From NCBI RefSeq assembly GCF_009295515.1, contig NZ_RQVV01000012.1, positions 17,038 to 81,037 on the forward strand: 64,000 nucleotides of DNA, read 5' to 3'. Positions 8,529 to 13,906 of the stretch are shown piece by piece. Under the pieces are notes generated by a model that was not told where the DNA came from, searched no databases, and was given only the letters and a program-made list of their open reading frames with translations. The position numbers and the translations under genes are program-made. The stretch comes from Erwinia endophytica. GTDB lineage: Bacteria > Pseudomonadota > Gammaproteobacteria > Enterobacterales > Enterobacteriaceae. Numbering within the stretch: position 1 is the first letter of the stretch; each line of letters starts with the position of its first letter.

Positions 8529-8861
8529 TCATGCCAGATTACTTAGGAAAGTTATTTTCCCGCTGATAGTTTTTGACTGATCATTTTTAATATGGCCTTT
8601 GAATTTATAATGATCACCATCCCCATCAATAGACAACTCAAGGTCTGATGTCCCTGTCCCATTAAATGCATTGGTATCATTCTTGTTGTACGGTACCGAC
8701 TTAACGAAAGCTTTGTTACCTTTTACTTCCCCTTTGTAAAAGCAAACATCATCACCGCCATTGATAGATCCATTGTTTACAATGACAATCCCGCCTAACT
8801 GACCATTCTGGTTAACATTAGTATCAAAAATAAGCTTATAAATTCCGTCTTTCATGCTCAC
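8529..8861 (-). CDS. GrlR-like regulatory protein (phage accessory gene)
   Basis: A 110-residue protein starting MSMKDGIYKLIFDTN, resembling the GrlR family (in enteropathogenic E. coli, a small beta-barrel protein that binds GrlA and represses type III secretion). The similarity I recognise is the MKDGIY-x-hIF N-terminus, the following IVIVNNGSINGGD segment and the overall size. It is flanked by a terminator on one side and a roughly 160-bp gap on the other, so it is probably expressed on its own. A host-regulating role is inference; the partner is unknown. Confidence 0.6.
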   Translation of the reverse strand: MSMKDGIYKLIFDTNVNQNGQLGGIVIVNNGSINGGDDVCFYKGEVKGNKAFVKSVPYNKNDTNAFNGTGTSDLELSIDGDGDHYKFKGHIKNDQSKTISGKITFLSNLA

Positions 8862-9023
8862 TCCTAAGTGGTTATGCCTTATGGCGTGAGCATTATATCA
8901 CCAACAATTTGGCATCAATTGCTGATTTTTCTACACTTTGCAGTGTGGCTAACTGTTCCCATGCGCCGGGTTTAAGAGCCGTTGTGAAAGTGGCTCTCAG
9001 TAAATGGTGGAGAAATCACGCCT

Positions 9024-9713
9024 TTATGCTGCAAGTCGGTGCTGCTCTTCTATCAGCGGTTGGCGGTGGTTACGCTCAAACATGCTTGTAAGCTCTGCCT
9101 TCCGCTTGTCATAGTCCCAGCCCATGGTGATAAACACCGTATCTGCACGCTGAAGTTCCGTGATTGCCCTGATTTGTTCAGCGGTCAGGTAATCCCGAAT
9201 AGCCTCGGTTTTGCCGATGTCATTCTCTTTTCTGAACTTTGCGGACGTTGTGCCGAGTACGATCCGGTTAATCATGTTGGCTTCGTTGCTGAAGTGGTAA
9301 TGCTCAGCCTCTTTCCCTTCTGATTCTCTACTGCTCTTGATGGCGTTGGTCATTGGCCGGTATTCTACTCGGGCCAAATCTCGTTCTGCCTGAATCAGCG
9401 ATTCCTTTCTGGCTTTCTCCCGGTACTCGATGAAGCTATCCACCAGGCGAACCTGACCATCCCTTGCTTTATCACCGCCAATGAATGGCATGGCAATCAG
9501 GAACCCACGTTCGGTAAGTTCGAAGCAAGGCTTTGACCTGTTTGATTTATCAACATAAGAGGTCTCCTTGAAATCAAGGGCACCTAAATGTTCCGTCTCA
9601 ATTAACGACCGGATGTTTTGCATCACGTTATCGTGGCGTCGACCAAATTCAGCCGCGATGACTTCAGTGCTAACAACTGGAGTTCCTTTGACGATCTTAA
9701 TCAGGTGTTTCAT
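9024..9713 (-). CDS. rha: Rha-family phage regulatory protein
   Basis: A 229-residue protein with the N-terminal Rha DNA-binding-type domain (VVSTEVIAAEFGRRHDNVMQ, then SYVDKSNRSKPCFELTERGF) and a helical C-terminal half. Rha proteins occur in lambdoid phages such as phi-80 and interfere with growth in hosts lacking IHF. The gene is isolated between the lysis region and the GrlR-like gene. Family assignment is fairly sure; the target is not known. Confidence 0.8.
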   Translation of the reverse strand: MKHLIKIVKGTPVVSTEVIAAEFGRRHDNVMQNIRSLIETEHLGALDFKETSYVDKSNRSKPCFELTERGFLIAMPFIGGDKARDGQVRLVDSFIEYREKARKESLIQAERDLARVEYRPMTNAIKSSRESEGKEAEHYHFSNEANMINRIVLGTTSAKFRKENDIGKTEAIRDYLTAEQIRAITELQRADTVFITMGWDYDKRKAELTSMFERNHRQPLIEEQHRLAA

Positions 9714-11199: not shown

Positions 11200-11447
11200 T
11201 AATCCTCCTGCCCAGGAGGAGAAAGTATCCCCCTGGAGGTCGCATTTCTGTATGTTTTCAACATCTGATGTTTGTACCAGACGTTAACAATGAACGTAGC
11301 GATACCAATAACAACGCCACTCACTATTGCCACCTGATTCCAGTCCAGACTATGTATCCACTGCGACACGCTACCCCCGCATACCAGGGTGCCGGATACG
11401 CAATAACTCGCTGCTGATGCGATTTTATCTGGCATGATTTTGATCAT
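11199..11447 (-). CDS. S: Holin (pinholin-like, class II)
   Basis: An 82-residue membrane protein with two hydrophobic segments (about 13-31 and 38-58) and a charged C-terminus, resembling phage 21 S. It is the first lysis gene and is directly followed by a SAR endolysin, the enzyme type that pairs with pinholins. A start at M5 is also possible, which could give the dual-start holin/antiholin arrangement known for S21. Confidence 0.8.
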
Positions 11448-11544
11448 CCGTACCTCCCGTCATCGGGGGCTGTGTGTATTGTTGAAAGAGGAAAGTGCGC
11501 CGTCCCGACTAACCAGGGAATGTTGTTATTGATTCGGGAGGCGC

Positions 11545-11572
11545 AAAAGAAAAGGCCCACCGATGTGAGCCC
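11545..11572 (-). terminator. Hairpin terminator upstream of the lysis genes
   Basis: Read on the minus strand, GGCTCAC-atcg-GTGGGCC is followed by TTTTCTTTT. It lies between the counter-oriented cassette and the holin, so late transcripts would have to read through it (as Q-modified polymerase does). Confidence 0.5.
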
Positions 11573-11621
11573 TTGAATAGATGCGGGCGCGACCCCGCTT
11601 TATCGCGTGTTATGTGGTGAA

Positions 11622-11675
11622 TGTCATGTTTTTATGACAAAAGTACTTGTCATGGTTTTATGACAATGGTAGTAT
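11622..11675 (+). promoter_or_regulatory. Promoter with two 18-bp palindromic operators
   Basis: Two near-identical palindromes, TGTCATGTTTTTATGACA (11,622-11,639) and TGTCATGGTTTTATGACA (11,648-11,665), repeat at a 26-bp interval. The second covers the -35 element TTGTCA (11,647-11,652), which is followed by a 17-bp spacer and -10 TAGTAT (11,670-11,675). This looks like a strong promoter repressed by a dimeric helix-turn-helix protein, probably the one encoded at 12,150-12,722. Aca-regulated anti-CRISPR promoters have this architecture. Confidence 0.8.
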
Positions 11676-11729
11676 CTATTCATCGGCAGGGGCATAAGGC
11701 CCGGCCAATAAACCAGAAGGGTTTTCGAA

Positions 11730-12110
11730 ATGACTAAATCAGAAATCTTCAAAACAGCACACGAAATCGCTAAATCAACTAACGCTGTCGTGGGCTGCTA
11801 TCAGATCGCTTTTTCTCTCGCTCTTAAATCTGTTTACGCGTCACTGACCCAGACAATGGAAGAAAAGTTGATCGACATGGGGATGCACGTTTGGGAAAAA
11901 GGTGACTATCGTCGAATCTATATAAAAGCAGAACATTATGAGGCTGTTTTCGGACTCAAAACCCAGCACTACAAAACCGGCAACATAAAAAGCGCAATGC
12001 TGAACGGTCAGGAAATCAGCAACAGTAAGGCATACAAATTATGCAGCACAGCTAGTTATTTTGACTGCAACACTCAGCAGTTCGTATCAAACATGACACC
12101 AATTATCTGA
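11730..12110 (+). CDS. Unknown 126-residue protein, candidate anti-defence gene
   Basis: A soluble protein starting MTKSEIFKTAHEIAKST with a good ribosome site (AGAAGGG). The first 40 residues form a likely helical domain; the rest is mixed and contains AVFGLKTQHYKTGNI and ISNSKAYKL. It is the first gene after the palindromic promoter and is followed by a GC hairpin and the HTH gene, on the strand opposite to the late genes. I do not recognise a characterised family. A role in blocking a host defence such as CRISPR-Cas is inferred only from the locus layout. Confidence 0.7.
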   Translation: MTKSEIFKTAHEIAKSTNAVVGCYQIAFSLALKSVYASLTQTMEEKLIDMGMHVWEKGDYRRIYIKAEHYEAVFGLKTQHYKTGNIKSAMLNGQEISNSKAYKLCSTASYFDCNTQQFVSNMTPII

Positions 12111-12118
12111 TTAACAGC

Positions 12119-12134
12119 GCCCCGGAAACGGGGC
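12119..12134 (+). other. Intercistronic GC hairpin
   Basis: GCCCCG-GAAA-CGGGGC, a six-pair stem with a GNRA loop, lies between the two + strand genes without a T-tract. It may attenuate or stabilise the upstream message. Confidence 0.5.
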
Positions 12135-12149
12135 GTAACAGGAAACAAT

Positions 12150-12722
12150 ATGACGCCCGAATTTTTAGAATCCGCTGGCAAATTGCTGTTCGGCGACAGA
12201 TGGCAGACTGATACCGCCGAGCTACTCGGCGTTACGTATCGTACTGTCCGCCGCTGGATATCCGGTGAATCAGCAATTCCATCTGGAATAAAAAAAGATT
12301 TGCTCGCAGCTCTGGAAAACAGACAGCAGATGATCGCTGAACTCATTAAACATGAAACCAACAAAAAGGAATTGTCTATGTATCTCGTTGATTACAAAAT
12401 CGTTCATAAAAATGATAATGGAACAGTCCTGATCCTGAAAAATATCAGAACAAAAAGTAAAGATTGTTATCGGATTGTTCGAAAAATTGATAACTCATTC
12501 CGCAACATGACAGACACCAGAACAGCGAATGCATGTGATGAGGGAGCCGAGCACGTCGCTAGGGCACTCCCAAAAAATATTGCAATATGCCAGGCGATTG
12601 AGGCGGAGATCGGGATCGGCGGCATGATTGATGTTCTGGACGACCATAATATGATCCCAAAATATAATGATAAAAAAACAGAACAGTATAAAAATGCAGG
12701 TTTATGGTTCGATATCGAATAA
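12150..12722 (+). CDS. HTH protein, Aca-like regulator candidate with extra C-terminal domain
   Basis: A 190-residue protein. Residues about 15-55 hold a helix-turn-helix (TAELLGVTYRTVRRWISG) as in small Cro-like repressors and anti-CRISPR-associated (Aca) proteins. Residues 77-190 form a second, unrecognised domain. An in-frame ATG at 12,378 (Met77) follows AAGGA at 7-bp spacing, so the C-terminal part could also be made alone (114 residues). As second gene of the cassette it is the likely binder of the palindromes at 11,622-11,665. Its stop codon touches the first CRISPR-like half repeat. Confidence 0.75.
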   Translation: MTPEFLESAGKLLFGDRWQTDTAELLGVTYRTVRRWISGESAIPSGIKKDLLAALENRQQMIAELIKHETNKKELSMYLVDYKIVHKNDNGTVLILKNIRTKSKDCYRIVRKIDNSFRNMTDTRTANACDEGAEHVARALPKNIAICQAIEAEIGIGGMIDVLDDHNMIPKYNDKKTEQYKNAGLWFDIE

Positions 12723-12840
12723 TAAACCGCTAAACATCGTCCACTGCCTGTAATACTATCAACGTTCCCCGCGTCAGCGGGGATAAACCACATTCACTCT
12801 CACCTTAAACATTGTTCCCCGCATTAGCGGGGCTAAACCG
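12722..12840 (+). CRISPR. Degenerate type I-E-like CRISPR mini-array in the prophage
   Basis: Two 29-nt units match the enterobacterial type I-E repeat: 12,762-12,790 (core GTTCCCCGCGTCAGCGGGG followed by ATAAACC) and 12,812-12,840 (core GTTCCCCGCATTAGCGGGG followed by CTAAACCG). Both keep the perfect CCCCGC/GCGGGG stem with a 4-nt loop. A half repeat ATAAACCG (12,722-12,729) lies exactly 32 nt before the first unit, the normal I-E spacer length. The second interval is only 21 nt. No cas genes are in the window. Phage-borne solitary repeats of this sort are known as RNA anti-CRISPRs (Racr). Confidence 0.75.
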
Positions 12841-12855
12841 AAGTGAGCATGAATT

Positions 12856-12880
12856 GTTCCCCGCCACGGCGGGGATTTTA
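12856..12880 (+). terminator. Repeat-like hairpin ending as terminator
   Basis: GTTCCCCGC-CACG-GCGGGGATTTTATT has the same stem and 4-nt loop geometry as the CRISPR-like units, but the 3' tag is replaced by a short T-tract. It probably ends the + strand cassette transcript and defines the 3' end of a small hairpin RNA. Confidence 0.6.
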
Positions 12881-13234
12881 TTGGTCACCCCGCGCCTTAA
12901 GCGATAGCTTCCGTACTCGTCAGTACCGGGGTGAATTTGGTGCCACCGCAAGCCAGCATGCAGACCCTAAATATTATCTGCGACCGGCAGCGATGGTCTT
13001 TATCAACATCAACGCACCCATCCAGAGTGCGGCCTGCCGATCCGCAATCTTTGCAGGTCTTCAAATCCCGTACGGGTTGTTGTGGTGGCCTTTCTGTCCT
13101 CAGTCTTTCGACCTTTCACCATATTGGGCAACCTGTGATTCGATATTCACCACAACGAGAAAAACACTCAACGTCTCTAAAGCGCTCAAAAGCACCCGCT
13201 GAATGTTTTTCTCTGTTGTGCAGATTTCAGACAT
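12881..13234. other. Late leader region without a clear gene
   Basis: About 350 bp between the repeat hairpins and the putative late terminator. A + strand frame (12,843-13,202) translates to a Cys/Trp-rich sequence (NAPIQSAACRSAIFAGLQIP) reminiscent of the poorly defined Ash/Icd-like ORFs annotated in many enterobacterial prophages, but it lacks a convincing start and overlaps the terminator. I treat it as conserved non-coding leader or a degenerate gene. Confidence 0.35.
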
Positions 13235-13276
13235 AAAAAAAGCCGCCGTGATGTCCCTAAGAACACGTACGGCAGC
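13235..13276 (-). terminator. Strong terminator in the tR' position
   Basis: On the minus strand an eight-pair stem (GCTGCCGT with ACGGCGGC) is followed by seven Ts. It lies just after the Q-position gene, where lambdoid phages have the terminator that Q protein overrides. Confidence 0.7.
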
Positions 13277-13286
13277 TTATGCAATA

Positions 13287-13315
13287 ATGATTGCTCATTT
13301 GTTCATTAATGTCAA
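13287..13315 (-). promoter_or_regulatory. Putative late promoter pR'
   Basis: A perfect -35 TTGACA (13,315-13,310, minus strand) lies 6 bp after the stop of the Q-position gene, with a weak -10 (AATCAT at 17-bp spacing). Position directly after Q and before the terminator matches pR'. The -10 is the doubtful part. Confidence 0.45.
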
Positions 13316-13321
13316 CACGTT

Positions 13322-13906
13322 CTACGCAACCTTCCCAATTTTATTTACCTTTTTCCGTTCGTTCATCGCTTTTAGCAGCGGGAAATAGATCATGTACTGA
13401 CTTGCGGCCAGAATTTCGCTCACCTCCCGGCGACAGGTAGACATCGACGGGCGTTTCAGCCGGTTCCCTCCCCTCGTTGCGATTTTGCGTGGAGTTGCAA
13501 CCTTGTGGATATACACTGCAATGGCGTATTCAGATGAACCATGCGCGTAGTAGCTCAGCAAAATACCAAACGCCTTTTTGTCAATGCACATGACGGAATC
13601 TACGACCTGAGAAATCAACATTCCGTCATCGTCATTGCATATCGGACGAGACATACCAGGCTGAGGCTCTACCGTTGCCATATACTGCGCTATCACACTG
13701 CTCTGGCGTTTTTCCAGCCTGCCTGAGTAGACCCATGCGCCCCACAGCTCCAGCCAGCCATTAAGCCAGTCGTGCTGTTCTTTTGTCAGGCTCAGTTCAC
13801 GGACAGTCACAACGTCCTCCACTTCATCAGATGGCTGAAATTTTGCAGGATTTTGTAGTCGTACATAAACGAGTGCTTGCTTTTGTAGAGACGTAACAAT
13901 TGCCAT
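13322..13906 (-). CDS. DUF1133-like protein in the position of late antiterminator Q
   Basis: A 194-residue basic protein. The C-terminal third has the pattern seen in DUF1133 phage proteins: KVATPRKIATRGGNRLKRP then CRREVSEIL, a probable DNA-binding helix-turn-helix. It is the last gene of the early right operon, followed by a candidate promoter and terminator, which is exactly the Q location. Function as late-gene antiterminator is inferred from position and DNA-binding character. Confidence 0.65.
   Translation of the reverse strand: MAIVTSLQKQALVYVRLQNPAKFQPSDEVEDVVTVRELSLTKEQHDWLNGWLELWGAWVYSGRLEKRQSSVIAQYMATVEPQPGMSRPICNDDDGMLISQVVDSVMCIDKKAFGILLSYYAHGSSEYAIAVYIHKVATPRKIATRGGNRLKRPSMSTCRREVSEILAASQYMIYFPLLKAMNERKKVNKIGKVA

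Follow-up and report, generated by a model that had tools for sequence, protein, structure and literature searches.

A lambdoid prophage of Erwinia endophytica carries a cassette of three tandem mimics of the type I-E CRISPR repeat, which, judging from sequence and context, is very probably an RNA anti-CRISPR directed against the type I-E system of its own host. The context is supportive because the cassette lies within a prophage, the host has a matching system, and cse1 is present in 6/6 prophage-cassette genomes tested (the host, G000, together with G025, G267, G447, G457 and G452). As to its mode of action, we favour over a pure decoy, at roughly even chances of being right, a reading in which the cassette RNA would be guided to silence the host cas operon while also occupying Cas6e and Cascade. 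The window, that is, the whole stretch of DNA that was analysed, is 64,000 nt long, and the features of the cassette region are as follows.

11647..11675, + strand: sigma70-like site TTGTCA-17-TAGTAT with TG (promoter scan; near chance level)
11730..12110, + strand: 126-aa protein, function not assigned (ORF; similar-looking ORFs, by eye only, near the G447 and G457 cassettes)
12150..12722, + strand: 190-aa protein with N-terminal HTH (weak Aca2/YdiL similarity, below cut-off)
12628..12655, + strand: sigma70-like site TTGATG-16-TATGAT, 9/12 (promoter scan; near chance level)
12699..12728, + strand: imperfect palindrome, 30 nt, just 5' of the cassette (repeat search, folding)
12722..12729, + strand: handle tag ATAAACCG, 32 nt before unit 1 (sequence)
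12730..12761, + strand: interspace 0, 32 nt (own-genome and phage-record searches)
12762..12790, + strand: unit 1, ACGTTCCCCGCGTCAGCGGGGATAAACCA, 26/29 nt as in host repeat 13 (repeat search, BLAST, folding)
12791..12811, + strand: interspace 1, 21 nt, pairs with interspace 2 (target and duplex tests)
12812..12840, + strand: unit 2, TTGTTCCCCGCATTAGCGGGGCTAAACCG, 24/29 nt as in the host consensus (repeat search, folding)
12841..12853, + strand: interspace 2, 13 nt, AAG PAM match near host cse1 (target search, null tests)
12854..12882, + strand: unit 3, TTGTTCCCCGCCACGGCGGGGATTTTATT, predicted terminator fused to a repeat mimic (repeat, terminator and folding searches)

The sequence-only reading had described 29-nt I-E-like units with differing loops and a third unit that ends as a terminator, and sequence, repeat search and folding all bear this out. 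A direct-repeat search recovers all three copies, which are separated by 21 nt (units 1 and 2) and 13 nt (units 2 and 3); each has the stem CCCCGC/GCGGGG, the loops are unlike one another, and each is predicted to fold into a 6-7 bp hairpin resembling that of the host repeat. The stem of unit 3 is followed by the T-tract ATTTTATT, and this unit is the sole terminator-like site on the + strand within 11300-13400, a stretch in which the scan returned 5 sites over both strands vs 2.2 expected. The half repeat reported upstream of unit 1 is a real 8-nt tag at exactly 32 nt that coincides with the final 8 nt of the host repeat, the crRNA 5' handle; nevertheless, it may have another cause, since it overlaps both the stop codon at 12720-12722 and the 3' arm of the palindrome. 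The palindrome itself is possibly an operator, or a hairpin that covers the handle tag. A scan for sigma70-like sites gave 6 vs 3.6 expected, and the site at 11647-11675 is a possible operon promoter at a score near chance level.

Lambdoid genes surround the cassette, which had been placed in a prophage from the sequence alone: the prophage encodes homologues of terminase, portal, holin, lysozyme, Q, NinG, replication protein O, a CI-like repressor and RecT, and the cassette is flanked by Q and holin and lies on the other strand, 3' of the 126-aa gene and then the 190-aa gene. Between these two genes, at 12118-12135, there is a GAAA-capped hairpin, CGCCCCG/CGGGGCG, followed by no T-tract (by eye). 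A large protein search with the 190-aa protein returned the protein itself and one partial relative, none of its relatives in genome contigs was confirmed, and the six matches in phage records cover only its first 72 residues, while the predicted structure is confident for about residues 1-62 only (mean pLDDT 52.7). HTH proteins of this kind occur near the cassettes of L019 and L116 (aligned) and near those of G457 and G452 (by eye and from weak HTH matches). A DUF1456-like protein of about 91-95 aa lies directly 5' of the prophage cassettes L019, L045, L080, L116 and L267, the Pfam match of the L267 protein being just below cut-off. No close relatives of the cassette region were found in phage and E. 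coli records, and the one partial match in a plasmid collection is confined to the segment that holds units 1 and 2.

The presence of an HTH gene and a gene without assigned function beside the cassette might suggest a Cascade-dependent regulator of one of the prophage's own genes, in the way that CreA controls a toxin. However, no toxin family appears among the matches of the two genes, and the best interspace match in the prophage's own flank, which has an ATG PAM and falls within the 190-aa gene, reaches a run of 7, so that this explanation is very improbable.

The host genome has a complete I-E operon, cas3-cse1-cse2-cas7-cas5-cas6e-cas1-cas2, and a CRISPR array whose 15 repeats mostly read GTGTTCCCCGCGCCAGCGGGGATAAACCG and are degenerate at one end; this repeat is nearly the same as the mimics. 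The absence of cas genes noted earlier therefore applies to the surroundings of the cassette, which is on contig C4, and not to the genome, whose cas genes are on C53. Alignment with the host repeats, which had been proposed as a check, gives 3/29 differences between unit 1 and array repeat 13 and 5/29 between unit 2 and the consensus, the best BLAST match between the cassette region and the array having an E value of 1.7e-7. Self-targeting by the host array was considered and dropped: the longest match of the 15 host spacers to the window is 15 nt and lacks a seed, and no argument can be drawn from self-targeting because none of these spacers has a seed match in the prophage. Within the host's genus, cse1 is present in 6/37 genomes, and a tandem pattern search gave matches in 2/37 (0 with a reversed control pattern), both among the six with cse1. 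The cse1 assignments were confirmed by TIGR02547 for G000, G002, G011, G018, G025, G031, G166, G267, G447, G452, G457 and G707, and in genomes other than the host's most remaining cas genes were assigned by eye, on the basis of ORF starts and gene order.

Further tandem cassettes, both in other prophages and beside cas operons, came to light when viral and genome collections were scanned with sequence patterns and with a covariance model. The viral numbers are lower bounds, one selection comprised 12 listed loci of 184, from which L123 (GC-rich repeats) and L173 (the end of a true array) were rejected, and in one scan the top rows were inspected and the matches below them taken as arrays. Inspection of 12 of 21 genome matches (G000 and 11 others) gave 5 cassettes and 7 ordinary arrays. 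That the cassettes of G447, G452 and G457 lie in prophages was concluded by eye from the ORFs around them, and the cassettes of G025 (Pantoea sp. BAV 3049) and G447 occur also in IMG/VR contigs (L010 and L116, respectively). In the prophages of G267 and G452, proteins adjoining the cassette show weak, below cut-off similarity to Cse1; such proteins beside prophage cassettes measure 363 aa (L217:9328-10419) and 437 aa (L270:4787-6100), and those of L217 and L270 are possibly viral Cse1 decoys, on the strength of this resemblance. A single 772-kb contig of G452 bears two similar cassettes (L270 and L271), each with an HTH gene and a Cse1-like gene nearby.

The last unit is fused to a T-tract in L045, L080, L125, L116, L061, L067, L021 and G457 and in at least 5 genomes of genus g61. 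On the viral contig L021, the I-E-like units with the terminator-fused last unit lie at about 8600-9160, and the interspaces resemble stretches of a neighbouring gene. Among 22 unit spacings, 49-50 nt occurs in 7/22 (the window and L010 included) and 59-63 nt in 11/22, the remainder being 71 nt twice (the near-identical L080 and L125), 42 and 153 nt; most cas-adjacent creR-type cassettes found here are likewise spaced at 49-50 nt. It had been argued that the short interval in the window is unlike an ordinary immune array, and the non-immune character is upheld, with the addition that 49-50 nt is typical of creR-type cassettes. In nine aligned cassettes all 108/108 pair cells are paired, although part of this stem pairing is a selection effect, because the search script required paired stems. 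Thirteen cells are changed on both sides vs 4.6 in shuffles, a value reached by 0/500 shuffles; 4 pairs with double changes were reached by 42/500 shuffles, and 6 further pair types by 500/500. The cassette might also be a decayed, functionless remnant of a host CRISPR array that the prophage acquired. Units that are unequal, with a 5' unit reduced to a tag, would lead one to think so, but three intact stems with differing loops, and the recurrence of a terminator-fused last unit and a spacing of about 50 nt with different sequences, make decay a highly unlikely origin.

CreR is a cas-regulating crRNA-like RNA that is partly complementary to the cas promoter (PMC13131331, PMC12737573, from the portions of both texts available), and its occurrence in type I-E is stated in a review (PMC13131331, likewise in its available portion). 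In 7/8 genomes examined of genus g61, the cassette and the start of cse1 are about 250-500 nt apart and the cassette is divergent from the cas operon, the genes having been named by eye and cse1 assigned by model in G166 and G267; in the eighth, G267, it lies beside phage tail genes. Guide matches were scored by PAM, by a seed rule and by a sixth-base rule under which every sixth base is ignored when runs are counted. All seven cas-adjacent cassettes have an AAG PAM match with a run of 7-14 in the cas-side intergenic stretch, while runs on the opposite side measure 1-3. Three further g61 cassettes show an AAG match in 1 (run 13) and not in 2, so that the creR pattern holds for 8/10 overall, cas adjacency being established for the first seven only. 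From their sequences, the cas-adjacent cassettes look like elements of CreR design, the primary paper on which is reportedly Liu et al. 2023. The creR-type spacers found here are 20-22 nt long, with one of about 34 nt. In L234 (G011, of the same genus as the host), the creR-like element upstream of cse1 has a spacing of 49 nt, and its second unit is fused to a terminator.

Two sister prophage cassettes carry a guide nearly identical to the creR-like guide of their host. In G025, a creR-like element with the spacer GTTACACCATAGTCTTATTATA lies between cse1 and an ORF taken as cas3, and the prophage interspace GTTACACCTTAGTCTTATTGTA is identical to this spacer at 20/22 positions; against the target beside the creR-like element, the prophage interspace scores 20/22 with an AAG PAM, and the host spacer 19. 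The G447 prophage interspace begins with the same 17 nt as the creR-like spacer that stands upstream of cse1 in that genome, and within the first 15 nt both depart from the target at the same two positions. When 10 interspaces from 6 prophage genomes were tested against their own hosts, a canonical PAM with a run of at least 8 upstream of cse1 was found for three (G025, run 16; window interspace 2, run 10; G447, run 8) and was absent for the other 7/10; five interspaces of G267, G457 and G452 had no cas match, one of the two G452 cassettes having been included. When 17 interspaces were compared with 18 cas loci, three canonical-PAM runs of at least 10 emerged: those of G025 and of the window against their own loci, and that of L061 against G287, the last presumed to be chance.

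In the window, the candidate guide is interspace 2, AAGTGAGCATGAA, which matches the host sequence AAG|AAGTGgGCATGAc at 11/13 positions (mismatches at positions 6 and 13) at L014:5093 on the + strand, 46 nt upstream of the cse1 start. This target is inside the 3' end of cas3 and is not a recognised promoter, and the 13-nt interspace is shorter than the creR-type spacers found here. For a run of 10 within the 1.4 kb upstream of cas3 and cse1, the null P is 3.3e-4 per interspace, the same for random window 13-mers and for shuffles, and three interspaces of the cassette were tried against the host cas genes; over the whole 10.9 kb, it is 0.002 (random 13-mers) or 0.0013 (shuffles). The 12-nt core of interspace 2 has two genome sites outside the cassette, one of which is that upstream of cse1. 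Interspaces 0 and 1 have no comparable match at the host cas locus, and a scan of two stretches of G000 revealed no creR belonging to the host itself. Interspaces 1 and 2 are mutually complementary (duplex P ~0.025), and this pairing may be a competing reason for their sequence.

The remaining interspaces were considered as spacers in their own right. Interspace 0 is of exact immune length, 32 nt, and virus-borne mini-arrays are known (PMC6858448, as far as its available text goes), so that a viral mini-array which enlists host Cascade to attack competing phages might be envisaged. This is improbable, as interspace 0 has only one weak partial match among 50,697 phage records and its first 21 nt are found in 0 viral contigs, interspace 1 matches one viral contig, and the repeats are unlike the host's and unlike each other. 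As an immune spacer, interspace 0 was rejected, the genome having no other match at up to 3 mismatches. A target of interspace 1 in other hosts was likewise rejected: 9/392 genomes of the family have AAG plus its first 16 nt (two wild positions) with at most 1 mismatch, in 10 places, none with cse1 in the surrounding locus, and these were taken as chance.

The lack of targets for interspaces 0 and 1 is what one would expect of a tandem Racr-like decoy, whose mimics would draw off Cas6e and Cas7 into complexes that are aberrant or too small and whose interspaces need no target. RacrIF1 acts in this manner and two I-E Racrs inhibit (PMC10651486, in the part available). Self-structure in some long prophage-cassette interspaces (P <=0.1 in 5/13 vs 1/15 host CRISPR spacers) points the same way, yet 3/10 creR-type spacers show it too. 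Against a decoy alone stand the creR-like guides of the two sister prophages and the unlikely match of window interspace 2 upstream of cse1, and we regard it as a possible explanation that is somewhat less probable than guided silencing but close behind it. Titration of Cas6e or Cascade, as first proposed, may accordingly not be the whole mechanism, given the creR-type spacing of 49-50 nt and the guides in the sister prophages.

On the favoured reading of guided silencing, the prophage cassette would be transcribed, with the RNA ending at the predicted terminator in unit 3, and the host's own Cas6e would bind and cut this RNA, leading to its loading into Cascade. Interspace 2, 13 nt long, would then guide Cascade to the site that lies 46 nt before cse1, silencing cas, as a short or partly matching guide would keep Cascade on the cas DNA without cutting; the RNA would also tie up Cas6e and Cas7. 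Such an RNA would be a virus-borne version of CreR. More generally, temperate phages may take the guide of host CreR into prophage cassettes, turning host Cascade on the host cas operon, with the window being a compact multi-hairpin version in which a 13-nt guide is directed to the region before cse1 and one repeat mimic also serves as terminator; we put this proposal at slightly under even chances. If true, RNA anti-CRISPRs would include guided silencers that hijack the host cas feedback loop, and guides common to prophages and host creR genes, found here in two genomes, would be predicted. No account of prophage-borne creR guides was found in the literature searched, a body that excluded preprints and most subscription papers.

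Comparison with known systems places the cassette between several of them. Like Racr (PMC10651486, from its available part), it is a virus-borne CRISPR repeat mimic with no cas genes beside it, in a host with the same subtype; RacrIE1 and RacrIE2 are I-E solitary repeats that inhibit. Unlike the solitary repeat of Racr, it comprises three tandem units within 121 nt, with a predicted terminator last and a possible guide; the anti-CRISPR proposal is therefore well supported by context but does not extend to a Racr of solitary-repeat type. The survey rule (SRUFinder), as printed in the available part of PMC10651486, discards clustered units and units with partial flank matches, and the units of the cassette are clustered; tandem forms were set aside by that survey because by design it kept only solitary repeats. 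The resemblance to virus-borne mini-CRISPR arrays, as described in the accessible text of PMC6858448, lies in few repeats, no cas genes and the prospective use of host effectors. In contrast to such arrays, the cassette has unequal repeats that differ from the host's at 3/29 and 5/29 positions rather than being identical to them, shortened intervals and no convincing viral protospacer for interspace 0. In CreTA/CrePA, a crRNA-like antitoxin guides Cascade to a promoter (PMC12737573, from its available portion), and guidance of Cascade by a crRNA-like RNA is proposed for the cassette as well, but the latter has neither an adjoining toxin family match nor a good match in its own flank. With CreR, as the accessible text of the sources describes it, the cassette shares the arrangement of repeat, short spacer and repeat, and two sister prophage cassettes share the host creR-like guide; CreR is encoded beside the cas operon and targets the cas promoter, whereas the cassette is prophage-borne on a contig other than that of cas, with its candidate target in the 3' end of cas3. 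Having the full defining features of neither, the cassette, as its sequence indicates, resembles both Racr and CreR in its predicted action.
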